Source of the DNA: Porodaedalea pini
Taxonomy: Eukaryota; Basidiomycota; Agaricomycetes; Hymenochaetales; Hymenochaetaceae
Length of the DNA: 64,000 bases
Direction of reading: 5' to 3'
Assembly: GCA_002794775.1 (NCBI GenBank)
Contig: NBAY01000007.1
Location: 124,001 to 188,000 of the forward strand
Shown here: piece after piece, positions 6,014 to 42,506 of the stretch
Layout: each line of letters starts with the position of its first letter
How positions within the stretch are numbered: position 1 is the stretch's first letter
Notes under the pieces: generated by a model
The model's input: the letters and a program-made list of their open reading frames with translations, nothing else
Database searches by the model: none
What the model was told of the DNA's origin: nothing
Made by a program: the position numbers and the translations under genes

Positions 6014-6021
6014 TCACGTGA
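6014..6021. promoter_or_regulatory. E-box palindrome TCACGTGA at the LINE A target site
   Basis: This 8-bp palindrome lies 66 bp upstream of the ATG at 5948. It straddles the left junction of LINE copy A: TCAC belongs to the host flank and GTGA begins the target-site duplication. CACGTG is the known core for bHLH factors such as Cbf1/Pho4; a regulatory role here is inferred from position. Confidence 0.6.
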
Positions 6022-6028
6022 GTTCGTG
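6018..6028. repeat. Target-site duplication of LINE A, left copy
   Basis: GTGAGTTCGTG, identical to 12334-12344. It borders the 3' end of the minus-strand LINE. Confidence 0.88.
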
Positions 6029-6204
6029 TTTATAAGGTTGCACTACTCTGCACTGTACACTACGGACTAAGCGAACAAAAGGGGAAAGGGGGGAATAGGA
6101 GAAAGAAGAAAGAAGATGAATGGGGCGTGGTGGCTGAATGTATGTCATCGCAGAAGTGAAAGATGGTGAATGTGTTAAGTATGTGAAGAAATTTGGTTAT
6201 GTAA

Positions 6205-9200
6205 TTAGTGAAGATCGTCTGGGAGGTCTGAGAAAAAGGGCATTGCGTCGGGTGGACGTCGAAAAGAAAAATATGCGAATTGGATTAAAAGCATGAAATT
6301 GGCCGGGGCGAACCAATTGGAAAATTGAAAAGGCAGTTGCGTTTTATGAAAAAATTGACGGCGAATTTGTGAAAAAAAAGGGCAAACGTTAAGCATATGA
6401 CGGACGTCATGTTCCGTACAGGACGGGTCCGGGCATCGACGGGGTGGATTTCGATCATGCATTTGGTGTGCGTTAAGAAGGATACCCACTGCTCTCGACT
6501 GGAGGTGTTGAGGGGTGCACCTCTCAGGACTGAGTCGCAGGAAGGGCCGTAATTGGCGCCTTGGGAAAAGGATAAACAGTGCGGTGGTAGCGCTGCGATG
6601 GTGTCGAAGATTAAGGACACGGTTCCGCCATTTGGCCAATAGGTCGGTGGAGAATCGCGCGTATAAATTCGGTAGTGTGTCGGGTGCTAGACTTTTATGC
6701 TGCGAGCGCGAGGCTTGGGCTGCGAGCTGGTCTGCGTGCGAGTTACCGGGTAAGCCCATATGGGAGGGCACCCACTGTACTGAGACAGTGGACGCGGGGT
6801 GATGGGTAGATAGATAGATACCGCAGAGTCTGCGAATGGCCGTGATGAAAGCGGCATGAGAGGGGTCTTCTGAGAAGATGAGGCGTGCGCAGTTTGCTGA
6901 GTCTGTGACAACGCGTAGGTGTGTAGGGTGGGTGCATTGCGCAAATAGGGTAGAAAAGCGCGAAATGCCAGCAATGAGGGCTTGTTGTTCCTCGTATAGG
7001 ATGTTACTGTGGGTATGAGCACTGGACGCGAAGGACGCGAGTTCGCGTCGGTTATGCATGATGGAAAATCCGTGCCCGCCGGTGGGGACGTTGTCCTGAT
7101 CAATGACGGAGCCGTCAGTAAATAAAAAGTATTGAAAGGGAGGGGGGTGATTGAAAAGGCGTAAGAATGCTTGGCGCGTGTGATGACTACAGCTGCGGGA
7201 CACGACTGGTACAAGAGTAAAGCGGGAATGAATGGGGGGGATGAGAGGGTAAAGATTGGTGCTGGGGATAGTGATGTTAACAGGAAGCATACAGCGAATG
7301 TCTGCTGAAGGAGGAAGAGAAGAGCGAGAGGAGGATACATAAGAAGTGATAAAGCGTTTAGCTTGGTATTCAACGAAAAGATCGATAGGGGGAATGGAAA
7401 GTAAAGAACCCGCAGCGTCTTTATTGACATTGCGAGATAGAATTAGAGAAAGAGCGCGATGTTGCACTGTAGATAAAATGGAACTGATTGCAGGGGAAGT
7501 TGGGAAGAGTTGAGCGCCATAAACAGCAACAGAACGAATAAGATTGAAGTAAAGGAGACGGGCGTATTCCAGATAGGACCCGTTAGAAGAATGAAATAAA
7601 AATGATCGTTGTGAAAGAGTGGATAGCGCCTTGTTGGCACGAGATTGAAGGTGTAGAGTAGGATGGAAATATTGATGAAATATAACCCCGAGCCAAGTGA
7701 TTTGTGATCAGGGGGGAATGACGTGAGAAGGTGAAAGGATGAGTGAAGGTTGATGTTCAACTTGTGTTGGATAAGGTACAGAATTAATATTAGGTGGAGG
7801 GGTAAAATGAATGAGTTCGACAGAATCGGGGTCGATGGCAAGCCCCAGTTGTGCGAATTGCAAGGAAAGAAAGCGGTATTGGTTTCGTAAACGAACAAGG
7901 TTGGTCCGCATACTCAACGAGCGGGCAGATAAAAGGTGATCGTCCATGTAGGCAAGGAGGGGACGGTTAAGGGGGAAACACTTGTAATACGCTTCAATGG
8001 CCGGTGTGGCCGCGAAGGTGGAAATGAGAGGCGAAAGGGGGGACCCCTGCGAGACACCCCTATTGGGCTTGGTGAAAGTGTCTGAAAAATATTGGTTAAA
8101 GTGTAAGGAAATGGGGCGATCGCGCATCCAATGGGAAACGCAATTAATAAGGTTAGGATGGATGAGGGACCGGGTCAACCGATCAATAAGTAAAGGATGA
8201 GAAATGTTATCGAAAAAACCCTGTATGTCGACTGTGACCACTGAGGTCAATAGGCGGCGACGTCTGGGTTCGAGTGGACCGAAACCAGGTCCACCAGTAA
8301 AAAGAGAACGAATGGTAGGATTGAAGTTATTCAAATGCAAAAGTTCGTAGCAGGCGGTAAGTGCGGATTGGGCTTTCCGGCAGCCATGCTGTGATGGGGG
8401 AATAAGGGAACGTTGTTCAAATATAACTTGAAGGCGGTTAAACAGGATGCATTCGAATAATTTGCCCATAGTGTTGACCAGGGCGATAGGGCGGAATGAA
8501 CGAGGGAGTGAGAAATCAGAACGTTTTGGTTTGGGGATGAATGTAATAATTGAATGTTTGAAGGATAAGGGGAAATAGCCGAAAGTGAGGCAAGCGGAAA
8601 AAATTTGAGAAAAAAAGGAAGGTTCAAGTTCGATAAAGAGTTTTAAATGAAGGTAAGAAAAGCAGTTGATGCCAGGTGACGTCGAGTCAACGGTGCCCTT
8701 TAGGGCCCGGAGTATTTTGTCGACAGAGACAAGCTCGATGTCGGAAAGTGGTGGGAGCGTATGCTGGTCGCGATAACCCGGAGGGAGCGCCGGAAAGAAC
8801 GTAGAGCGAAAAAGATCGGCTTTCTCACTCTCGCTAGAGGTGAAATTGCTCGAGGGGAGCTTAAGGGCGCCGATGGGGTGGCGGCAACACGCTGTACCGA
8901 TGTGTTGACGTCTCCAAATGGAGCTGTGGTCAGATTGTTGGAGTAAGCCGCCGAAAAAGGAAGATTTAGCGGCGGCGAGGGATTTATTAAGTCGGGCAAG
9001 GCTCTCCGGCGATGGGTTAGAATGATGTGACTGGTAGTCGCGACTGCATTGCTCGGTCCACCAGGAATGGGGTCCGTGATAAGTCCGGGGTTTGTGCTTT
9101 CGCAGAAAGCGGGTTGTGAAAGAAGAGAAGGTTGTATAAAAGGAATGTAAAATATCGTCAATATCGGAAGGGGAGTGAATGTTGGACGCGTCGAAAGCAA

Positions 9201-10028
9201 ACAAATGCGCCTCGCGGAAATCAGAAATTAAAGAAGGGATGTCACGCCTACGAACAAGGTGGAGCGGGTGCGTGTCAGGGGGTGGCGAGAAAGAAATTGG
9301 AATAGAAAACAAAAGAGGGAGATGGTCAGAGTGAAATTCAAAAGAAGGGTCTCCAATACGGAGGGATTGAGTAATAGAAGGGGAAATGTCAGCCGAACAA
9401 AGAACGAGGTCAAGTGTAGAGGAACCTTGAGGGTAAAAGAAAGTTGGAGAATTGGGGGGTTGGCGATGGCTAAAGGAATGTTGTCAATCCAGCGTTCGAA
9501 AGGTTCGGAGACAGGGAAAAGACGAGAGAATTTGTAATCAGACCAAAGGGCAGAGTGTCTGTTAAAATCACCGAGAAAAATATGAACGTCGGTAGACGAA
9601 GGGTTAGGAAAAGGGTCTTCGAATGGGTGAGTGGAGGGGGAGTTGTAAATGTTCCAGACGTAAATAGGGGACAACGAACGGCCACAATCGATGCTGATAG
9701 TGACCTGAAAATTGGAGCGTGATAAGTTAGGATGGGAATTAAATAAATGAGCGATGCGCGGATGGATAAAAGTCGCGCATGAGGGTGGCGTGTTCTGAGA
9801 TGAAGGGGGGAGTACGCAAAGAAAGGGATCGGAGTTGCGAGTGGCGAATCGCCGCTCACCGACCGCTGATGTTTTAGAAGGAATTATAGTAGAGATTGTA
9901 GGGATCTCCTGTAAGCAGATGATATCCGGGCATGCTGTACCACGTTGAAAGAGAGATTTAAAAAGGAGGTCAGTAGTGGGTTCCGAGCGTCAGACGTTCA
10001 TAGAAAGGAAAGAAAGGGACGTCATCAT
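6205..10028 (-). pseudogene. LINE A ORF2: endonuclease-RT-RNase H, broken
   Basis: Begins with ATG ATG directly after the ORF1 stop, with no gap. Compared with the intact ORF2 of copy B, three lesions are visible. (1) A TGA at 9990-9992, after 12 codons. (2) A frameshift in a C-run near 9456-9461, after ...LAIANPP. (3) A TGA at 7708-7710, before the segment ITWLGVIF. Otherwise the frame is open to 6205. Domains in order: APE-type endonuclease (QEIPTI, GDFNRHS, SDHLP), reverse transcriptase with the YMDD box (LLAYMDDHLLSARS), and RNase H (FLFTDGS, EEQQALIAG, VTDSANC, VQWVPSHMGLPGN). A C-terminal Cys/His motif (CPDPSCTEHDVRHMLNVC) follows. The lesions make it a pseudogene unless stops are bypassed. 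Confidence 0.93.
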
Positions 10029-12266
10029 TTAGAAAGGGGGTCGGTAATTGCGATGGGCAGGGCAGGCGGAAGACCTGGCATTATGATCGCCTTGGCAATT
10101 AATACAGTGTGCAAAGTGTTGGCACGCGAGGTTATTAGCTTCGGTGCAAGGGGCACATCTTGCGACGTGCACCGCCGTCCGGTGTGGTTCGGAACAAATG
10201 GCGCATCGCGCTACTGAACGACACTTGGTGGAAGGGTGTCCCAAGCGATGGCAGTTGTCGCACTGTGAAATGGTAGGTCGGGCCCGCATCTCCTCAAGTC
10301 GACGAATGACGCCGAAGACTGGGATGTTGCGGTTATCGTGGAGGAAGAAATGGTCGAAAGCAAGACGGTTAGTATCCTTGATAATGACAGACACGTTACA
10401 AAAGTCAAGGGTATTGAGGCTCTCGATAGATGCCATGAATCTGGGAGGGTAAAGGAACTCTTGGTTAGCGAATTGAGGCAGAGACGATAGCTCTTCCAAT
10501 AAGTCTGCTGGGGAATAAAGGGCGTTCATCTGTTTATCGAACATGGGAACAGCTGGGACGACAAGTTTGAATTGGGGAGAAGGGGTAAAGACCCTCGCCC
10601 CGCTGATGTTAATAACACGGTTGAGAAGAGTAGAAAGGGATGCGAATGCGGAATCGAAATCGGTGCGAATATTAGTAAATGAAATGCATAAGTTGCCATT
10701 TGAAGTATACTCGACGTTAAGAACGACGAGATGCTTAAAGTCGGCAGAGCCTTTGAGGCCCGAACGAACGGTGTTTTTAATAGAATTAGGGAGGGGGTGG
10801 ACAGCAAGGTTGTCAGGAAGGGAGAAATAAACGTGTTTGACGTTGCGGACGCGGGTATTGACCGAGCCATTAGCCCGATTCATAGGCATGGTGGTGACCT
10901 CCCCGTCAGGGTGGTCAATGGTAGGCTTCGAGACTTTGGTAGGGACCTGTTTAGGCCTTTTCTGCGCTGCCTTGGCGTAAGTAACCGTGGTGTAGCCGTC
11001 GTTGTCTGTTCCAACGGACTGGACAGGAGGGGGGTAAACCGTGGTCGTCATTCCTGGGTGGGGGGCGTTATGCTCTGAGTGCATGTATCCATCGGGAGCG
11101 TGGATCGTGCCTTGTGTGTCCATGCGATAGCCCGAGCCCGGGATACGAGTCTTGGCCATGGCTACTTGGTATTCGATGTGTCTGCCTTTGGGGGGCGGGA
11201 CGCGTTGTTTGACTACAGGGGGGGGTGGGGGAAAGCGGGGATCGTGAATAAAGCGAGCGCCCAGAGGTTCCGGGAGGAGCTTTTTGTCTGTCGGGATGTT
11301 AGTCTGGAAGGATACTTTGGGTTTTGTGGGGTTTTGCGCCTGTTTTTCAAGTTTAGTAGTTTTTTCCGTTAGAGATGATACCATAGATAAAAGAGAGGAA
11401 ATAGAACGGGACATAGTCGTGAGTTCGTCTGAAATATGTTCCTCGCGGATATCCTGAGGACTCCGATAAATATTATCAAAAACGTTTTTGCAATATGGTG
11501 ACTGAATTTTGAATGCGGTCTGAAAACTGTTAATAGCGGTATTTGCATAATTCTCTCGCTGAGTTTCCTCATCGAGCATGTTAGAGTGATTTATCCAGAA
11601 GCAAAGGGAGGACGCGATGTTAGCCATATAGCGTCCCATGCGTGCGGGGTCATTCTGAAAAGGAGTCTCTGATTTCCAGAGGTCCTGAGAGATTAGGTTA
11701 CGGAGGTCGCGGACCGAACCGTCCGCGAGTTCAAGAGCCTTCCGGTTGACTTCTTCGGCAATTTCCGGGTCCTCGTGGTCGATATCGATGGGATCGAGGT
11801 CGACTTGGGGGGGTTGGGAGTTCACGTACAAGTCATCATCTGCGTCCATGGCATCCTTGTCGTCAGGAATTTGCCCGATGGTAGCGGGATTGCTAGGAGC
11901 TTCGCGCGCCTGGTGTTCGTCCTCAGAGGGGGATCGTTTGAGCGACTGTTGAGAGAGAATTTCCGGGGTAGGGGGAAGATCCCCTTGTTTGTGGAGAGCG
12001 GCGGCGTGTTTATCCGCATCAACGTCGGGGGACCAGTTAGCGATGTTTGTCGCGGTCTGGTCGCAAACAACAGAGTCGTGATTAAAGGTCAGGTCGCGTC
12101 CGCATTTGCTGCAGAGCTTCGCCGCGCCAGAGGCGCACGAGCGACTGTGATGAGGCAATTCGTATTTGCACTCTTCACATTTGGTGGGATCCTTGATGTT
12201 ACCCAAGGATCTGAGCGATTTGATTCTATGGAGACTCGGTGGCTTCGCGTTGGGGGGCGGGGCCAT
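10029..12266 (-). CDS. LINE A ORF1 protein with zinc knuckles
   Basis: 745 residues, uninterrupted. Near the N-terminus (about residues 30-70) lies a Cys/His-rich segment, CEECKYELPHHSRSC...CSKCGRD...NHDSVVC, which is conserved in copy B. The middle is acidic, then Pro/Lys-rich (PPPPVVKQRVPPPKGRHIEY). The C-terminal 80 residues hold a CX2CX4HX4C zinc knuckle (CDNCHRLGHPSTKC), followed by two irregular Cys/His clusters (CAICSEPH..., CINCQGDH...). LINE ORF1 proteins bind element RNA and escort it to the target. The stop TAA abuts the ORF2 ATG, suggesting coupled termination-reinitiation. Confidence 0.92.
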   Translation of the reverse strand: MAPPPNAKPPSLHRIKSLRSLGNIKDPTKCEECKYELPHHSRSCASGAAKLCSKCGRDLTFNHDSVVCDQTATNIANWSPDVDADKHAAALHKQGDLPPTPEILSQQSLKRSPSEDEHQAREAPSNPATIGQIPDDKDAMDADDDLYVNSQPPQVDLDPIDIDHEDPEIAEEVNRKALELADGSVRDLRNLISQDLWKSETPFQNDPARMGRYMANIASSLCFWINHSNMLDEETQRENYANTAINSFQTAFKIQSPYCKNVFDNIYRSPQDIREEHISDELTTMSRSISSLLSMVSSLTEKTTKLEKQAQNPTKPKVSFQTNIPTDKKLLPEPLGARFIHDPRFPPPPPVVKQRVPPPKGRHIEYQVAMAKTRIPGSGYRMDTQGTIHAPDGYMHSEHNAPHPGMTTTVYPPPVQSVGTDNDGYTTVTYAKAAQKRPKQVPTKVSKPTIDHPDGEVTTMPMNRANGSVNTRVRNVKHVYFSLPDNLAVHPLPNSIKNTVRSGLKGSADFKHLVVLNVEYTSNGNLCISFTNIRTDFDSAFASLSTLLNRVINISGARVFTPSPQFKLVVPAVPMFDKQMNALYSPADLLEELSSLPQFANQEFLYPPRFMASIESLNTLDFCNVSVIIKDTNRLAFDHFFLHDNRNIPVFGVIRRLEEMRARPTISQCDNCHRLGHPSTKCRSVARCAICSEPHRTAVHVARCAPCTEANNLACQHFAHCINCQGDHNARSSACPAHRNYRPPF

Positions 12267-12333
12267 CGTACAAGACTAAGAGCTAGCAGATAAGGTCTTT
12301 CCCACGGTCAAGATGATGGTGGTAAGAAGTTAA

Positions 12334-12344
12334 GTGAGTTCGTG
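12334..12344. repeat. Target-site duplication of LINE A, right copy
   Basis: GTGAGTTCGTG, identical to 6018-6028. It borders the 5' end of the minus-strand LINE, about 156 bp upstream of the CSF1 start. The CAC half of the E-box is missing on this side. Confidence 0.88.
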
Positions 12345-23590: not shown

Positions 23591-23852
23591 TTCTGTCGTT
23601 TCAGTTGTAGATTTTCTTTACTTATATTGATAAATTTTTTGTTAACTCTACTACATATATGTAATGAGTTGTTAGTAGCAATAGTCGTATATCCTCGTCT
23701 AGGATTAATGTGATAAATGTTTTTTCAACTCGCTGTGTGTTCTTGCCATGGCATGTGTGATGTGTCAGCAATCAAGTTTGATCACGTGACAAGCACGGAT
23801 GATTACGAGCCCTAAACATGGCAGTCGGACGTGACCAAGGCAAGCAAGCAGG
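23591..23852. promoter_or_regulatory. CSF1 3' region and GLTSCR1-gene promoter with TCACGTGA box
   Basis: AT-rich sequence directly after the CSF1 stop, then a TCACGTGA palindrome at 23782-23789, 64 bp upstream of the ATG at 23853. This is the same motif and spacing as the E-box cut by LINE A, but here it is unoccupied. Confidence 0.5.
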
Positions 23853-34911: not shown

Positions 34912-34918
34912 CACGTGA
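34912..34918. promoter_or_regulatory. E-box CACGTGA at the LINE B target site
   Basis: CAC is host flank; GTGA starts the target-site duplication. Before insertion this box would have lain about 110 bp upstream of the carrier-protein ATG now at 41310. Confidence 0.55.
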
Positions 34919-34925
34919 TGCGGCT
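34915..34925. repeat. Target-site duplication of LINE B, left copy
   Basis: GTGATGCGGCT, identical to 41200-41210. Borders the 3' end of the minus-strand LINE. Confidence 0.9.
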
Positions 34926-35063
34926 TGTATAAGTTCTGCTATCTACTACCAACAGATGCCCAACCGCACAGGAAACGAAACAAAAGGAGACATAATTCGT
35001 AGCGCGTAAATGGGTGTAGTTAATAACTAGGGGAAAAGAGCGTAACGGGGTTAGAGGTTGTGA

Positions 35064-38000
35064 CTAAAGGTAAAAGGACGGGGGTAAATCAGATAAAACA
35101 GGCATAGCGTCCGGTGGGCGACGGAATGAAAAGTAAGCGAATTTAAGAAGGAGAAGAAAATTATTTGGGCGAAACCAGTCTGCAAAAGTGAATGGTAGGG
35201 AGCGTTGACGAAAAAGGCCATTTCGAACCAGAGAAAAGAACGAGCAAACATTAAGAATATGATGGACATCATGTTTAACGCACAACAGGTCCGGGCAACG
35301 GGGTTCGGGGTTTCGGTTATGCAAATCGAGCGTGTTCAGCATTAAGCTGGTGGCGCGTGATAGAACTGTACGGTGAATCTTCTTCCTTGGAGAAAGCTTC
35401 AAAAATGGACATAAAGAACGCGTTGGTTGAAGGATAAATGAGGATGGCTCGATGATGGAGCGATGTCCCCATAGGTTTATGATCGTAGCTTTCCAGTCTC
35501 GCAAAAGATCGAGCTGTACTTGCGCCTTCAAGTTTGGAAGCGAGTCTGGTATGGTCTCGCGATGAGGACTAGATGCTGCGTCTTTAGCCAGTTTGTCGGC
35601 TTTGGAATTGCCCAATACTCCGCGATGAGATGGGAGCCACTGGACCGTAATATGAGATGCCTCGTGGTGAAGGACGAGGAATATTCCGCATAGGTGGCGG
35701 AAAAGAATGATAAAGTCCGCATGTCGAGCGTCATCAGAAAAGATGAGTTGGATGCAATTGAGGGAGTCCGACACAATGTGAATATGGACGGGTGTGTGGC
35801 ATTTTGCAAGGAGAGAAGAGATTCGTCGTATGGCTGCGATGAGCGCTTCCTGCTCTTCAAACAGTATGTTTGATCGAGAGTGCGCTGCTGAAGTAAAGAC
35901 AGCGAGTTCCTGGTGATTGTGCATAATAACGAAACCATGGCCGCCGTTATGGGAGCCATCGGCATTCGGTGTGATGGAGCCATCTGTAAAGATGAAATAT
36001 TGGTAAGGAGGGGGATGTAAGAAGAAAGAATTAAAATCGCGAATAGCACGGTTGCGATACAAAGAAGGAGGGATAGGAGTCATAATAAGACGTGAATGAA
36101 TAGGAGTAAAAGATGGGAAGGAAGTGACTTTAGAGATAGTTATGTTAGGAAGAAGGGAAGAAACTAAATATTGGTTTTTAGAAGGGTTATGTTTAGAGTG
36201 GGCGAAATAAGACAAGAGAAAAGATTGTGAGAGAGCTCGAACGAAAAGATGTATAGGAGGACATGACATAAAAGATTCGGCCACGGCAGGGTTTGTGCTG
36301 TGGTTAACTACTGAGTGAAGAAACCGGTTTTGAGTCATTTGAAGGATTGAAATGAAAGAGGATTCCGGGAAGAGGACGGCACCGTAGGTGGCGACCGAGC
36401 GGATTAAGCCAAAATAAAGAAGGCGCGCGTATTGGAAGTAAGCGCCATTAATCCTGTTGAAAAGAAACGAGCGTTGGTGAAGAGTGGAAAAGGCTTTATT
36501 GGCCCGAGATTGAAAGTGAAGTTTAGGGGAAAGGTCAAATGAAAAGATGACACCAAGCCAAGTAAGGTGGCGCGAAGGAGGAATAATACGATTGTTTGGC
36601 AATGACAACGCTGCGCTGGAAGCTGAAGGAGAGTCATGTAGAAAGAAACGAAAGGTGTAATTAGCGATTTGAGTATGTGGAAGGATATGGAGGAGCTCGA
36701 TGGCGTCCGGGTCAATGGAAAGACCAAGAGATTGGAACTGGGAGGATAGAAATTGAAATTGGTTTCGCAAGCGTCGCAGGTTGGTACGAATGCTAAGCGA
36801 ACGCGAATAAAGAAGATGGTCGTCCATGTACGCGAGTAAAGGGTGATGGGGACCGAAACGAGTGTTATATGCTGTTATAACGTCAGCGGCGGCGAAGATT
36901 GAAATAAGAGGGGACAACGGGGACCCTTGGGGAACTCCCCGGTTGGGTTTAATAAAGGGGGTAGAGAAAAAATTGTTAAAGTGAAAAGAAATGGGTCGGT
37001 CTCTGAGCCAGCCCGAGAGAACATGAATGATATTGGGATGGACATTGGAATGAATGAGTTTCGATAGGAGGCAGTTATGAGAAATGTTGTCGAAGAAACC
37101 TTGAATGTCAATGGTAAGAATTGAAGTGATCAAATAGCGATGTCGCTGGGAAAGGGAGCCCCGCTTGTCGCTGGAGTTCATGATAAAAGGTTGGGTTAGA
37201 ATATCAGAAAGAAGATCGTAGCAAGCCGTCAAGGAAGAACGATGTTTCCGGCAGCCGTGTTGGGCGTTGGGAAGAAGATTATTTAGTTCAAAGAAAGGTT
37301 GAAGAAGGTTAAAAAGGATGCGCTCGAAAAGTTTGCCTATGGTATCAACCAGGGTAATGGGCCGGAACGCTCGGGGAACCGAAAAGTCCGAGCGTTTAGG
37401 TTTAGGGATGAAGGTAACGAGCGACGTTTTGAAGGGCAAAGGGAAATGACCCATCTTCATACACAAAGAAAAGAGATCAACGAAAAATTGACCGCGATGC
37501 TCGATGAGGAGCTCCAGATGTTTATACGAGATGTGGCTATTGCCAGGGCTCGTTTCGCGATCGATGCCTCGAAGGGCTGCATGTACGTCCTTCATTTCAA
37601 TGGGACGGAACTCGGATAGGTCGGGGAGGGGAATGACCTCCGGAGTTTGTGATAGCGGGGGAAAAAACGTCGTACAGAAAAGAGACGCTTTGTCCAACTC
37701 GGTTAGCGAGAAAGACCCGTTATTCATGCGGAGCGCGCCGATAGGGGCTCGACGACGCGCCATCCCGATATGTTGGTTGCGCCAGGCAGTATGCGCATCC
37801 GATTGTTGAAGGCGGGAGCCAAAGAAGGCGTTCTTGGCTCTGGTGATTTCGGTGTCCAGACGCCTTTTCGACTCAGGCGTAGGATTAGTGCAATGATCGC
37901 GATAGAGTCTCGTACATGCTTCGGACCACCATTTGTTGGGGCCGAAGTAGGATCGTGGTTTTCGTTTGTGCAAAAAGACAGCGGCGAAGCCTGAAAGGGA

Positions 38001-38888
38001 TGAATGAAGAGCAAACAGTAGGTCGTCCAGCGCCTGGGGAGACTCGATGTTGGTTAAAGAAAAGGAAAAAGAGTTAGAGTCGCAGAATTCCCCAATAAAA
38101 GAGGGTAAATCTCTGGAACGGATGGATCGGAGAGGGTGTTGTTGGGGAGCGACCGACTCAATAATGTTAAAAGAAAAACGAATGGGTAGGTGATCAGAAG
38201 AAATGTCAAGGGATGAATCGGAAACAGTAACACTTTCCAGAAGGGAAGGTGCGAAATCGGCTGAGGCGAGAACAAGGTCAATAATAGTTTTAGAACCGGT
38301 GGAGCGATTAAAATATGTGTGTTGGTCTGGGGGATTGCAAACGGTTAAGGTGTTCTCGTTGATCCAGTCAACGAGGGCTACCGATTGGTTGAAATATGGG
38401 GATTGATCTGGAAAAGACCAAAGGTCTGAATGCCTGTTAAAATCTCCGATGAAGATGTTCGATGGGAGATCAAGTGAAGGAAAAGGGTTTTCGAACTCGT
38501 GTAGGGAAGGGGAATTGTAAACGTTCCAGAGAAGCAGGGGGGATAAATCGCCCCGTGAAAGAGAAATGACTGTAACGTTAGGTGATGAAGAATAAGGAGT
38601 GAAAAGGGAAACTCGGTGAATGATGCGGGGGTGCACAAGCGTGCAACACCTCGGCTTCTCGGGAGACGAAGGACGAAAAGCGATATAAGGAGCGGAGTAT
38701 CGAAGGTGAAAGACTCGAGTGCCGACAGGAGACAATTTGGATGGAACAATGGAGTGAATTGTCGGGATTTCTTGAAAAAGAATAATGTCCGGGGCGGAAT
38801 GAGTGGAAGAGAATGCTCTTAAAAGAAAGTCAAAAGATGGTTCGGAGTTGCGAAGGTTAATAGAAAAGACAGAGATAGTGTCAGTCAT
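35064..38888 (-). CDS. LINE B ORF2: APE endonuclease, reverse transcriptase, RNase H
   Basis: 1,274 residues without interruption. The N-terminal APE-like endonuclease (about 1-240) shows SINLRN, FQEIPTI, GDFNRHSDLW and SSDHLPIRF, the active-site blocks of this fold. The reverse transcriptase (about 440-720) shows FIPKPKRSDFSVPRAFRPI, LTIDIQGFFDNISH, GVPQGSPLSPLI and the catalytic YMDD in LLAYMDDHLLYSRS. RNase H (about 960-1110) shows FIFTDGS (D), EEQEALIAA (E), IVSDSLNC (D) and VQWLPSHRGVLGNSKAD (H/D). A C-terminal Cys/His motif (CPDLLCVKHDVHHILNVC) closes it. ATG lies 5 nt after the ORF1 stop (TAATCTCCATG), consistent with reinitiation. It makes the protein that nicks target DNA and primes reverse transcription there. 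Confidence 0.96.
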   Translation of the reverse strand: MTDTISVFSINLRNSEPSFDFLLRAFSSTHSAPDIILFQEIPTIHSIVPSKLSPVGTRVFHLRYSAPYIAFRPSSPEKPRCCTLVHPRIIHRVSLFTPYSSSPNVTVISLSRGDLSPLLLWNVYNSPSLHEFENPFPSLDLPSNIFIGDFNRHSDLWSFPDQSPYFNQSVALVDWINENTLTVCNPPDQHTYFNRSTGSKTIIDLVLASADFAPSLLESVTVSDSSLDISSDHLPIRFSFNIIESVAPQQHPLRSIRSRDLPSFIGEFCDSNSFSFSLTNIESPQALDDLLFALHSSLSGFAAVFLHKRKPRSYFGPNKWWSEACTRLYRDHCTNPTPESKRRLDTEITRAKNAFFGSRLQQSDAHTAWRNQHIGMARRRAPIGALRMNNGSFSLTELDKASLFCTTFFPPLSQTPEVIPLPDLSEFRPIEMKDVHAALRGIDRETSPGNSHISYKHLELLIEHRGQFFVDLFSLCMKMGHFPLPFKTSLVTFIPKPKRSDFSVPRAFRPITLVDTIGKLFERILFNLLQPFFELNNLLPNAQHGCRKHRSSLTACYDLLSDILTQPFIMNSSDKRGSLSQRHRYLITSILTIDIQGFFDNISHNCLLSKLIHSNVHPNIIHVLSGWLRDRPISFHFNNFFSTPFIKPNRGVPQGSPLSPLISIFAAADVITAYNTRFGPHHPLLAYMDDHLLYSRSLSIRTNLRRLRNQFQFLSSQFQSLGLSIDPDAIELLHILPHTQIANYTFRFFLHDSPSASSAALSLPNNRIIPPSRHLTWLGVIFSFDLSPKLHFQSRANKAFSTLHQRSFLFNRINGAYFQYARLLYFGLIRSVATYGAVLFPESSFISILQMTQNRFLHSVVNHSTNPAVAESFMSCPPIHLFVRALSQSFLLSYFAHSKHNPSKNQYLVSSLLPNITISKVTSFPSFTPIHSRLIMTPIPPSLYRNRAIRDFNSFFLHPPPYQYFIFTDGSITPNADGSHNGGHGFVIMHNHQELAVFTSAAHSRSNILFEEQEALIAAIRRISSLLAKCHTPVHIHIVSDSLNCIQLIFSDDARHADFIILFRHLCGIFLVLHHEASHITVQWLPSHRGVLGNSKADKLAKDAASSPHRETIPDSLPNLKAQVQLDLLRDWKATIINLWGHRSIIEPSSFILQPTRSLCPFLKLSPRKKIHRTVLSRATSLMLNTLDLHNRNPEPRCPDLLCVKHDVHHILNVCSFFSLVRNGLFRQRSLPFTFADWFRPNNFLLLLKFAYFSFRRPPDAMPVLSDLPPSFYL

Positions 38889-38893
38889 GGAGA

Positions 38894-41125
38894 TTAAAAG
38901 GGGGATCGATAATTACGGCGAGCTGGACACTCTGAAGACCTGGCGCTGTGGTTGCCCTGGCAGTTAATGCACAGGGTGAAATGCTCGCATTGCAGATTGT
39001 TGGACGCAGTACACGGTGCGCATTTGGTGACGTGGACGGCCGTTCGGTGGGTTTCGGAACAGATAGCGCAACGGGCGACAGATCTGCATTTGGAAGCTGG
39101 GTGTCCTAGGCAGTGACAATTGTCGCACTGGTTGATGACCGGGCGAGCTTTCATTTCTTCAAGACGGCAGATCACCCCGAAAATCGGGACGGAGTGGTTG
39201 TTGTGTAGGAAGAAATGGTCGAAACATAGGCGAGCGTCGTCCTTAAGTATGACGGATACGTTGCAGAAGTCGCGCTGGTTTAAGCGCTCGATAGAAGACA
39301 TGAACCAGGGTGGGAACATGAATTCTTGCCCTTCGAACTGAGGCAACGAAGCGATTTCTTCATGGAGGTCTTTTTCCGAGTAAATTAGGTTGGTGTCCTT
39401 GTCAAAGACTGGGACGCCGGGGATAACCATCTTGAACTGGGGTGAAGGTGTAAAAGCCTTAGCCCCGGAGATATTGATGATTCGGTTGAGCTGTAAAACA
39501 AGAGAGCTGTGTTGTGCGTCGAAGTCTGAGCGAATATTAGTAAAAGCAATCAAAAGATTGCTGTTGGTCGTGTATTCGACGTTAAGGATGACAAGGTGTT
39601 TAAAGAGTGGGTTGCCCTTTAGGCCGGCACGAACAGTGTTTTTAATAGATAGGGGAGACGGGCGAACAGCAAGGTCACCCAGAAGGGAAAAGAAGATACG
39701 TCGGACGTTGCGCACACGGGTGTTAACCGATCCATTAGACCGGTTGATAGGCACTGTGGCTATTTCCCCTTGAGGGTTCTGCTCAGTAATGCGTACTACC
39801 TTGGTAGGGGTAGTTTTAGGCTTCTTTTGTGCCGCCTTAGCGTACGTAATGGTGGTGAAACCCTCCCGATCGGTGCCAACCGATTCAACAGGGGGGTGGT
39901 AGATGGTTGTTTGAGAGCCGTGCGGGGCGTTGTGCTCTGAGTGGGCGTAACCGTCGGGGGCAATGATGGTCCCATCGGTAGTCATGCGGAAACCCGAACC
40001 CGGGATACGGGTTTTAGCTATAGCAGCAGCGTATTCGGTTTTACCGTTCTTCGGGACCGGGACGCGTTGTTTGACGACAGGAGCTGGGGGCGGAAATCTG
40101 GGGTCGTTAGAAAAGCGAACCCCAATAGGGTCCGGAAGAATTTTCTGCTTTTGATTTGTTTTAGAGTTAGTGGAATTGACGTGAATGGAGGAAACGGGGC
40201 CATCCGCAAGCTGTTTTTCGATAATGTTGGTTTTCTCGGAGATAGAAGATACGACCGCAGAAAGATGCTGAATGGAACGCGACATAGCGTGCATGGTGTC
40301 GGTTATTTCTTGGTCCCTAATGACCTGACTGTTAGTATGGATATGTTCGAACACATGTTTAAACAAGGGAGAATGAATGCGGAATGTGGAATGGAAAGCT
40401 TCGAGACTGTCGTTTGCTGAATTAGTAAGACTGGTTTCATCGTCCAGCATGTTTGACTTGTTGATCCAGGATACCAAGTTGGACCCGACGTTAGCGAGGA
40501 TGGATCCGGCGCGAACTGGATCTTCGAACCAGGGCTTATCGGCTGACCACGTCGGTTGTGAAATGAGCGTGTGTATGTTGTTGATAGTGTCCTTGGTGAG
40601 GTCAGCAAACGAAAGGTTGACTTTCTCGGCGATGTCCGGATCATGCATTTCATCGATATCGTCCATAACGTTGTCGACCTGGGGGGCTTGGCTGGGATGC
40701 TCGTCTGGGATATACAAGTCATCGTCCATAGCGTCGTCATCAATTCGTGCGGGGGGCAGAATAGACCTATGTTCTTCCTCTGAGTTGGAGCGCTTCAGGG
40801 TGTTCTGCGATTCGATGTCCGGAGTCGGGGGAAGATCCCCTTGTTTACGGAGTCTGGCGGCGTGTTCATCCGCCTCGATATCGGGAGACCATTTGGCACG
40901 ATTCGCCTCCACTGCAATGCATACTTTGTCATCGTGGTTGTAGGTCTTGTCGCGACCACAAGTGACACATAGTTTGGCGGTCCCACTAACACACTGGCGA
41001 CTGTGATAGGGGAGATCCTGTTTACACTCCTCACACTTGGTGGGGTCCTTGGGATTAACAAGGGAACGAAACGACTTTGTTTTGTGAAGCGAGGCCTTTG
41101 CCTTGGTCAACAAATTGTTGTCCAT
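38894..41125 (-). CDS. LINE B ORF1 protein with zinc knuckles
   Basis: 743 residues, open. Same plan as copy A: N-terminal Cys/His segment (DPTKCEECKQDLPYHSRQC, AKLCVTCGRDKTYNHDDKVC), acidic linker with SPDIEADEHAARLRKQGDLP, a Pro-rich hinge (PPPAPVVKQRVPVPK), a conserved central domain (GSVNTRVRNVRRIFFSLLGD), and three C-terminal Cys/His clusters starting CDNCHCLGHPASKC (CX2CX4HX4C). Expected to bind the element RNA and act in the ribonucleoprotein. The N-terminal Cys-rich part is conserved between the two diverged copies, implying function. Confidence 0.94.
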   Translation of the reverse strand: MDNNLLTKAKASLHKTKSFRSLVNPKDPTKCEECKQDLPYHSRQCVSGTAKLCVTCGRDKTYNHDDKVCIAVEANRAKWSPDIEADEHAARLRKQGDLPPTPDIESQNTLKRSNSEEEHRSILPPARIDDDAMDDDLYIPDEHPSQAPQVDNVMDDIDEMHDPDIAEKVNLSFADLTKDTINNIHTLISQPTWSADKPWFEDPVRAGSILANVGSNLVSWINKSNMLDDETSLTNSANDSLEAFHSTFRIHSPLFKHVFEHIHTNSQVIRDQEITDTMHAMSRSIQHLSAVVSSISEKTNIIEKQLADGPVSSIHVNSTNSKTNQKQKILPDPIGVRFSNDPRFPPPAPVVKQRVPVPKNGKTEYAAAIAKTRIPGSGFRMTTDGTIIAPDGYAHSEHNAPHGSQTTIYHPPVESVGTDREGFTTITYAKAAQKKPKTTPTKVVRITEQNPQGEIATVPINRSNGSVNTRVRNVRRIFFSLLGDLAVRPSPLSIKNTVRAGLKGNPLFKHLVILNVEYTTNSNLLIAFTNIRSDFDAQHSSLVLQLNRIINISGAKAFTPSPQFKMVIPGVPVFDKDTNLIYSEKDLHEEIASLPQFEGQEFMFPPWFMSSIERLNQRDFCNVSVILKDDARLCFDHFFLHNNHSVPIFGVICRLEEMKARPVINQCDNCHCLGHPASKCRSVARCAICSETHRTAVHVTKCAPCTASNNLQCEHFTLCINCQGNHSARSSECPARRNYRSPF

Positions 41126-41199
41126 GGCAGAGATATGAGGTAGAAAAGCGACAGATGAACAGTTTTCCCACGATCGATGATGATGGTAAGAGGGAAAAA

Positions 41200-41210
41200 G
41201 TGATGCGGCT
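41200..41210. repeat. Target-site duplication of LINE B, right copy
   Basis: GTGATGCGGCT, identical to 34915-34925. Lies 99 bp upstream of the carrier-protein ATG; the CAC half of the E-box is not restored on this side. Confidence 0.9.
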
Positions 41211-41309
41211 CCGCCGCAGCGCCTCAGTACGCCGTCAGCAGATTGCGTATGTTCGTTGTATCTTGAACTTCATCGCTCACGCTCTGTCCCCTTCACTCTT
41301 TCTGCAATT

Positions 41310-42506
41310 ATGGGGTTTGCAGAATCTGCGCTCTTTGCGATTCTCTTCGTGGTCTCGTTTGCGTTCAGCTTCCTCATAGCCGTTCCTCTTGCCGGTGCTC
41401 TGATCAGGTTCCGAGCGAACTACACACCTAAGGGGCTTCAGTTGGATGGAGAAGGTGGTGTCCAACCGCATACTGGACCAGTGGTGAACTCTTATGTTGC
41501 CATGATCAAGAGGGTGAAGCGGCTTGAGGTAAGTCATTGTGTTTTAATTCGGCTCTTCAACTCAATGTTTCATATAGGGGTGGGCAGGATTATACAAGGG
41601 CTTCAGTACGGGCTCTACCTTCATCTGTCAACCGTTCAAAACTCATTTATCATTTACATAGTGCCCAGCTTCATCAGTTCTCTTGTCATAATTGCATTTA
41701 TAGCTATACTCCCCGGTACACCAATCGCGCATTCGGGTGGACACAAGAAATACTCGGCTCCCGTTGAAGGCGTGTGGAACAGACTGGTTTATAGTCTTTT
41801 CATGATGGTCATTTCCCTGCCTGTGACGGTCATAACGAACCGGTGAGTGTTTTGTGTTGCATCGCATGTGTATTTTGTACTTATTCTCTAATTTAGCGCC
41901 GTCACAACTCCTTACAAACTGCCATGGCTCAATGGTGCCTATTCCCTCTGCATACTTTTAACAGCGACTGAGCGCAGACGTCCGTGGCTCCTGTTCTTCA
42001 CGCCCGGTCTTATGGTGTCTGAGGTTCTGCGTGTCGCATATATCATTTTACTCATGGATCCCCTTCGCCTGGTGATATTCCCGGCAGACACGATCGATGA
42101 CTCGGATCATGTCGCAAAACTGACACTCGCACGTCTTAGCGCATATCTTGGTCTTGCTCTCGTTAGTACGGCTATCATTTGTCCGCTGGAAGTCGTGTCC
42201 ACCCGGCTGTCTATTCAACGTAACCATGTGGCGTCTGGATTTACTTCCGTTGCCCAAGAGGAGGATGCTGTTGTCAATGATGTCGTGTATTCCGCTGCAG
42301 ATGAAGATGTCATTGGGTGCGTTTCACAACTCTTCATAACGATTTAGTCCTAATTAATATTGAAAAGGCTACGAAACGAGGACGATCCGTACATTGGATT
42401 TGTGGACTGCGGAAAGCGCATTGTCAACGAAGAGGGATACTCGACACTCTTCCGTGCATGGTGGCTTGTCTTTATTCCGCTGGTGCTGGTTGCAATTTCG
42501 CCTTGA
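41310..42506 (+). CDS. Mitochondrial-carrier-family protein
   Basis: Five exons with exact phase-consistent joints: 41310-41528, 41578-41605, 41662-41841, 41897-42316, 42368-42506. The N-terminus (MGFAESALFAILFVVSFAFS) is a membrane helix. The 28-bp second exon plus the third give GWAGLYKGFMPSFISSLVII, the carrier-repeat GxxGLYKG signature. A later PLEVVSTRLSIQRNH matches the PxExxxxRL half of the carrier signature, and EDDPYIGFVDCGKRIVNEEG then FRAWW is the matrix-helix block. Only some of the three carrier repeats keep full signatures, so it may be a divergent or non-mitochondrial member; the substrate cannot be told. About 99 bp separate its ATG from the LINE B target duplication, so its promoter was split by the insertion. 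Confidence 0.85.

Follow-up and report, generated by a model that had tools for sequence, protein, structure and literature searches.

In target-primed reverse transcription (TPRT), cDNA is primed from the nicked strand that adjoins the 3' end of the element. Among LINEs whose insertion follows strict rules, those of the R1 clade (R1, TRAS and SART) are close to the element described here: they likewise carry an APE-type endonuclease (EN) at the N-terminus of ORF2, choose their target strictly and have an EN to which ours matches in fold, and R1 and TRAS have two ORFs. Their targets, however, are long repeats (28S rDNA or telomeric DNA), whereas the target here is a 6-bp palindrome, the E-box CACGTG, with some 10,000 occurrences, and the sequence information sits at the second-strand cut. 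The Tad1, Inkcap and I-like LINEs of fungi possess an ORF1 and an ORF2 with APE, RT and RNase H parts; the present element, also fungal, has this layout in common with them, and the likeness to these clades is by layout only. No report of an E-box target for Tad1, Inkcap or I-like LINEs was found in the literature searched.

Two further systems bear on the comparison. In the R2Bm model, as given in the available part of PMC6895275, two nicks are made by subunits that flank the site, the downstream subunit making the second cut; this scheme of two nicks with subunits on either side resembles what we describe below. R2 differs in using a restriction-like endonuclease and contacts to the rDNA on both sides, whereas our element has an APE-type enzyme and information only at the second cut. 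TRE5-A of Dictyostelium is another LINE that targets a regulatory context within gene-dense DNA. According to the available text of PMC5391098, Pol III factors are presumed to tether it, and 80.2% of its insertions are spread over 47+/-3 bp, a stretch of several bp that lies outside the site of the factor, in contrast to the base-exact cut inside the motif seen here. The target-specific LINE clades treated in the accessible part of PMC4640811 aim at repetitive sequences, and the passages seen of a work on fungal LINE insertions (PMC9674265) make no mention of a target preference. Thus, a site-specific APE-type LINE is already known; what is unusual is the kind of target and the placing of the information at the second-strand nick. 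The literature searched contained no report of an E-box-targeting LINE, an absence that is weak since subscription papers mostly lay outside the search.

The window, which is the whole stretch of 64,000 nucleotides of Porodaedalea pini DNA analysed here, contains two full-length copies, A and B, with the following features:

6015..6020, no strand: CACGTG E-box of the A target; the cut lies between 6017 and 6018
6018..6028, plus strand: A target-site duplication at the element 3' end, GTGAGTTCGTG
6029..12333, minus strand: full-length LINE copy A of the second lineage; DNA identity to B 65-75% in six blocks
12334..12344, plus strand: A target-site duplication at the element 5' end, GTGAGTTCGTG
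34912..34917, no strand: E-box CACGTG at the B target, intact after insertion, cut CAC^GTG between 34914 and 34915
34915..34925, plus strand: B target-site duplication at the element 3' end, GTGATGCGGCT
34926..41199, minus strand: LINE copy B, full length, bounded by a perfect 11-bp repeat, its ends resembling those of the genome copies examined
41200..41210, plus strand: B target-site duplication at the element 5' end, GTGATGCGGCT

Copy B is read on the minus strand, so that its 5' end lies at 41199 and its 3' end at 34926. The perfect 11-bp duplication and the left flank ending in CAC that an earlier note had attributed to B were both recovered at these positions. The left flank of B reads ...CAACCAC and that of A ...CCATCAC; both duplications are perfect, 11 bp long and begin with GTGA, and neither repeat can be extended, as the adjoining bases differ at either end. 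Given that the flanks end in CAC and the duplications start with GTGA, both insertions split CACGTG centrally.

The two copies are diverged. Their DNA is alignable in six blocks only; the ORF1 of A shows 62-64% amino acid identity to B-type ORF1 copies, and the central RT-bearing piece of its ORF2 53-55% identity to B-type. As judged from these alignments, A and B are separate lineages of one two-ORF kind of LINE. The earlier note had also held that they are not one duplicated locus, and we agree: a duplicated locus is ruled out by the differing flanks of A and B and by 50 targets with unrelated flanks (see below). A genome search for an empty allele of the B insertion returned the window's own copy only, and none was present in the genome for the A insertion at up to 3 mismatches. 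Moreover, the B site had been placed about 110 bp upstream of the ATG of a carrier protein; the distance holds (ATG at 41310, 110 bp off), but a Pfam scan of this ORF (41256-41846, which may run through an intron) gave no support for the name 'carrier protein'.

We then surveyed the 53.27-Mb genome assembly containing the window, in which CACGTG occurs 10,184 times (p = 1.9e-4 per position). Matches to the ORF2 of B were found at no fewer than 36 scored places and matches to its ORF1 at no fewer than 60. At the first 30 ORF2 loci, including the window copy, CACGTG or a close variant stood at a near-fixed distance past the 3' end. A genome-wide search with the B-type 3' end returned 117 places, from which the window copy is absent because it has one base different. 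CACGTG lies exactly 10 nt past the terminal TATA (N10) in 86 of these 117 ends, which represent 81 distinct targets, against 0.02 expected per position. When CACGTG was allowed 0-30 nt downstream, 94 matches at 93 ends were obtained, the eight outside N10 lying at 9, 11, 19, 21, 23 and 29 nt, and the reversed-pattern control gave 0 matches. Overall, the 117 ends comprise 86 at N10, 2 at N9 or N11, 27 with a variant word at this place or up to 2 nt from it, and 2 outside the examined set.

The A-type lineage follows the same rule. All 50 A-type 3' ends that have a CACGTG within 0-30 nt carry it exactly 8 nt after TTAYANA, a count made up only of ends with a CACGTG and still including copies on homologous contigs. 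From 40 A-type 3' pieces fetched, 30 had a recognisable end and 10 did not; the 30 comprise 25 with CACGTG in place, 4 with CACGTT and 1 with CACGAG (by eye), and one of the 25 (R14), of a lineage with 65% identity in the RT piece, is placed by a weak alignment. The insertion of these LINEs at CACGTG is therefore confirmed genome-wide, far above chance. This survey of insertion sites had been proposed in the earlier note, whose claim of true target specificity came through the refuting test set there and is supported, with CACGTG at a fixed position in most copies examined.

Random placement is ruled out by the 86 of 117 B-type ends at one exact distance. E-boxes are often found in promoters, and their frequency there could be taken to mean that insertion is non-specific and that insertions at E-boxes survive best or simply sit in open promoter DNA. 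Such an explanation would leave the base-exact position unaccounted for, in the B-type ends as in the A-type ones (50/50 among ends with a box), and we consider it barely tenable.

To read both sides of the target, short flanks were fetched for 75 B-type copies, 46 with both ends recognised and 29 lacking one. A direct repeat of at least 8 bp, found without use of the E-box, was present in 45 of the 46. These 45 copies represent 42 distinct targets, and the repeat is 11 or 12 bp long in 40 of the 42 (11 bp in 29, 12 bp in 11, the remainder 10 and 8). The extra base of the 12-bp repeats also matches the tail of the element, as chance would give in about a quarter of cases. One copy (B11) has no repeat of at least 8 bp, and its 3' site reads CACGAC; another (B56) has a repeat of 8, its 5' copy having TAC in place of CAC.

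The base profile was drawn from 50 targets read from both duplications, A and B pooled, with the two of the window included and B11 and B56 left out. Ten of the 20 paired A copies entered it. A02 was removed when the copies were filtered by hand, even though by eye it has an 11-bp duplication under the same rule; the nine others had no exact repeat of at least 10 bp or no 3' end in the piece, and two of the A copies outside the profile (A04 and A17) conform to the rule by eye apart from a single mismatch. It should be noted that the 50 include both B39 and B40, apparently a single insertion on homologous contigs. The 50 targets read CACGTG in 44 cases, CACATG in 2, CACGCG in 2, AACGTG in 1 and CACGTT in 1, the six variants each being one base off. 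They are CACGTG sites with unrelated flanks, and not rDNA, telomeric or other multicopy repeats.

Each base of the hexamer (positions -3 to +3) holds 1.7-1.96 bits of information. The flanks hold far less: 0.37 bits at the base preceding the hexamer (T/G) and 0.50 at the base following it (A first, C second), 0.18 and 0.15 bits one base further out, and at most 0.09 beyond, the other nick included. Altogether, the information is spread over some ten bases with CAC^GTG at their centre. T or G precedes CACGTG in 72 of the 81 distinct B-type targets, compared with 64.6% of all genomic CACGTG (p = 1e-6), and A or C follows it in 42 of the 50 targets. The motif is really the 6-bp palindrome CACGTG with softer flank preferences. 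The 7-bp target CACGTGA given in the earlier note is thus retained in its core, while its seventh base, A in 32 of 50, is only a preference.

The geometry of the junctions indicates which nick falls in the E-box. The element 3' end joins N8-CACGTG, and as both copies are read on the minus strand, the duplication has CAC^GTG at its 3' edge in element sense. Hence the priming nick lies 8 bp off the E-box, and CAC^GTG is, per TPRT geometry, the cut on the other strand, by the element 5' end. A priming nick inside the E-box is ruled out, since the 3' end joins N8 and not GTG. The priming nick, 11 bp from the CAC^GTG cut, shows practically no sequence information. The constant position of the nick in CACGTGA that the earlier note described is therefore upheld, with the amendment that it belongs to the second-strand cut and not to the priming nick.

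The 5' junctions read N8CAC followed by the element, and CAC could in principle be assigned to either side. We therefore considered whether CAC might be the 5' end of the element or result from microhomology priming, in which case the true duplication would be 8 bp and the cut would fall just before CACGTG. The element 3' ends are near-constant and the 5' starts variable: among the 40 copies whose repeat is 11 or 12 bp long, CAC lies anywhere from 3 to 14 nt away from the first conserved 5' motif and still adjoins the flank, and in two copies with short 5' ends (B08 and B35) CAC still adjoins the element. In 20 more copies with only the 5' end recognised, 18 have CAC up to 24 nt upstream of the conserved motif. 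Part of the spread of 5' starts is probably a subfamily difference and not truncation, and the copies read at the 5' junction include no strongly 5'-truncated one. As CAC adjoins 5' ends of varying start, it derives from the target rather than the element. Moreover, an origin of CAC in the element would leave the GTG half unexplained, and we regard it as very improbable.

Since the duplication is N8CAC, its 3' copy and the GTG that follows make a complete E-box, which can be used again. On contig C35, an A-type copy (A07) and a B-type copy (B39) lie tail to tail around one common E-box, and each of them has a separate duplication at its outer end. The homologous stretch on C63 carries a B-type copy (B40) without A07 and thus represents an empty site, with CACGTG intact. 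Most simply, A07 would have inserted into the box rebuilt by the B-type insertion. On contigs C24 and C128, whose 3' flanks are homologous, the same E-box is occupied by an A-type element on C24 and by a B-type element on C128. Common insertion flanks were observed for the contig pairs C35/C63, C24/C128, C79/C102, C50/C90 and C9/C75, which look as if both haplotypes, or recent duplications, were present in the assembly.

Sites other than CACGTG were examined for the half of the box in which they deviate. They include 8 CACATG (one at N12) and 6 CATGTG, which likely reflect decay of the central CpG. With these two words excluded and one N11 variant included, a tally by hand from the 3' junctions gave 17 mismatches in the GTG half (12 B-type, 5 A-type), among them CACGTT and CACGCG, versus 2 in the CAC half, CTCGTG and AACGTG (p = 7e-4). 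For the B-type alone, the numbers are 12 versus 2 (p = 0.013). Some variant sites may be later mutations.

We propose, with a probability of roughly 0.6, that the integration complex of this LINE clade recognises the palindrome CACGTG and that a protein of its own reads the palindrome and cuts its centre. The target in element sense is N8-CAC^GTG. The cDNA-priming nick falls a constant 8 bp ahead of the E-box, whatever the sequence there, and the second nick splits CAC^GTG; the stagger of 11 bp, about one helical turn, produces the duplication N8CAC, and the E-box is rebuilt intact after the element 3' end. The sequences themselves show the fixed E-box, the 11-bp duplication, the lack of information at the priming nick, the rebuilt site with one instance of its reuse, and a common rule for two diverged lineages. 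The protein reading the E-box would likeliest be the endonuclease of ORF2, or else a part of ORF1p or ORF2p that binds DNA, with a fixed ruler positioning the other nick. Taken more broadly, we think the odds slightly favour a clade that has adopted a transcription-factor word as its integration site, with specificity wholly at the second-strand cut, a ruler-placed priming nick and E-boxes acting as reusable docks in single-copy promoter DNA.

CACGTG is the canonical binding site of bHLH proteins. A host factor of this kind (Cbf1, Pho4 or USF type) sitting on the box could recruit the LINE complex, which would nick beside it and cut the vacated box later. Such tethering would fit a priming nick made 8 bp outside the box without sequence preference, and the T/G before CACGTG (72/81) is mirrored by the A/C after it (42/50). 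However, the second cut bisects the box exactly, at a place presumably covered by a dimer when bound; the placement is base-exact, unlike the spread reported for TRE5-A in the part of PMC5391098 cited above; and a tolerance that is one-sided (17:2), extending to CACGTT and CACGCG, misfits a symmetric dimer. We consider tethering possible but unlikely.

Between the two mechanisms put forward in the earlier note, the evidence leans towards a protein of the element over a bHLH tether. In favour of such a protein, the cut lies inside the motif, is base-exact and forgives one half, and the centring of the information on the second-strand scissile bond is as expected for a nuclease that reads its own cut site. 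Other points speak against it. CACGTG is itself the standard bHLH word, the preferred flanks are roughly symmetric, as from a dimeric factor, the 17:2 tally was made by hand and may include later mutations, and the information lies solely at the non-priming nick, which is unusual, as known APE-type endonucleases read the priming strand. The L1 endonuclease reads the strand that primes cDNA. The TRAS1 endonuclease reads the bottom strand, which primes cDNA (available part of PMC7265360), and Asp-130 and a hairpin take part in its reading of the telomeric repeats (available part of PMC2868851).

The proteins encoded by the two copies of the window are the following:

6205..9312, minus strand: ORF2 of A, broken frames, with long pieces at 6205-7467 and 7708-9312
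10029..12266, minus strand: ORF1 of A, 745 aa, 62-64% amino acid identity to B-type ORF1
35064..38888, minus strand: ORF2 of B, 1274 aa, with APE-type endonuclease, reverse transcriptase and RNase H
38894..41125, minus strand: ORF1 of B, 743 aa, with Cys/His clusters near both ends (by eye)

The element is an APE-type non-LTR retrotransposon (LINE), having a reverse transcriptase with an N-terminal apurinic-like endonuclease, target-site duplications and ends of the TPRT type. The ORF2 of B gave Pfam matches to RVT_1 (2.4e-24) and Exo_endo_phos_2 (1.5e-17), and its C-terminal RNase H domain is present (RNase_H, 9.2e-10, residues 963-1105). The endonuclease end of the ORF2 of A sits beyond 9312, towards 10029. 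A predicted model of the first 240 residues of the B ORF2 (pLDDT 79, pTM 0.84) found its best fold matches in the ENs of L1, TRAS1 and R1 (E about 1e-9 to 1e-8), including R1Bm EN (2ei9) and TRAS1 EN (1wdu). The top PDB sequence match of the EN was also R1Bm EN, a weak one (E = 0.068). Residues G148, N151, S231, D232 and H233 are among those invariant across 22 aligned sequences. A search for protein homologues returned 35 distant relatives at 20-29% identity, one of them from Podosphaera aphanis.

A Pfam scan of ORF1 gave no match. By eye, the ORF1 of both A and B has CCHC-type clusters at the C-terminus and a Cys/His cluster near the N-terminus; the latter is common to both (10029-12266 and 38894-41125) and reads CEECK...HSR.C...C..CGRD...NHD..VC. 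Either of these clusters could, as a guess, bind DNA.

Targeting a regulatory palindrome of 6 bp that is dispersed through the genome represents, for a LINE, a different strategy from the one described for other clades, with likely consequences for promoter evolution. As the second-strand site is here a palindrome that holds nearly all the sequence information, the system offers a natural test case. If the EN itself reads the E-box, it would be an endonuclease of small size whose specificity, at 6 bp, is unusual.

Finally, several observations concern CACGTG in this genome at large. The word is rarer than its reversed form GTGCAC (10,184 versus 13,436), and this scarcity stands despite a repeat family that carries CACGTG and despite the sparing of the word by these LINEs. 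Pairs of CACGTG 0-20 nt apart are over-represented (760 versus 172 in the reversed control), and many of the pairs among the matches listed are the inverted ends of an element of ~0.8 kb with terminal inverted repeats, one of which was read on L213 (about 1500 to 2290, CACGTGCATGTCACGTG ... CACGTGACATGCACGTG). Within the window, TCACGTGA at 23782-23789 is an unoccupied palindromic E-box with the preferred type of flank.
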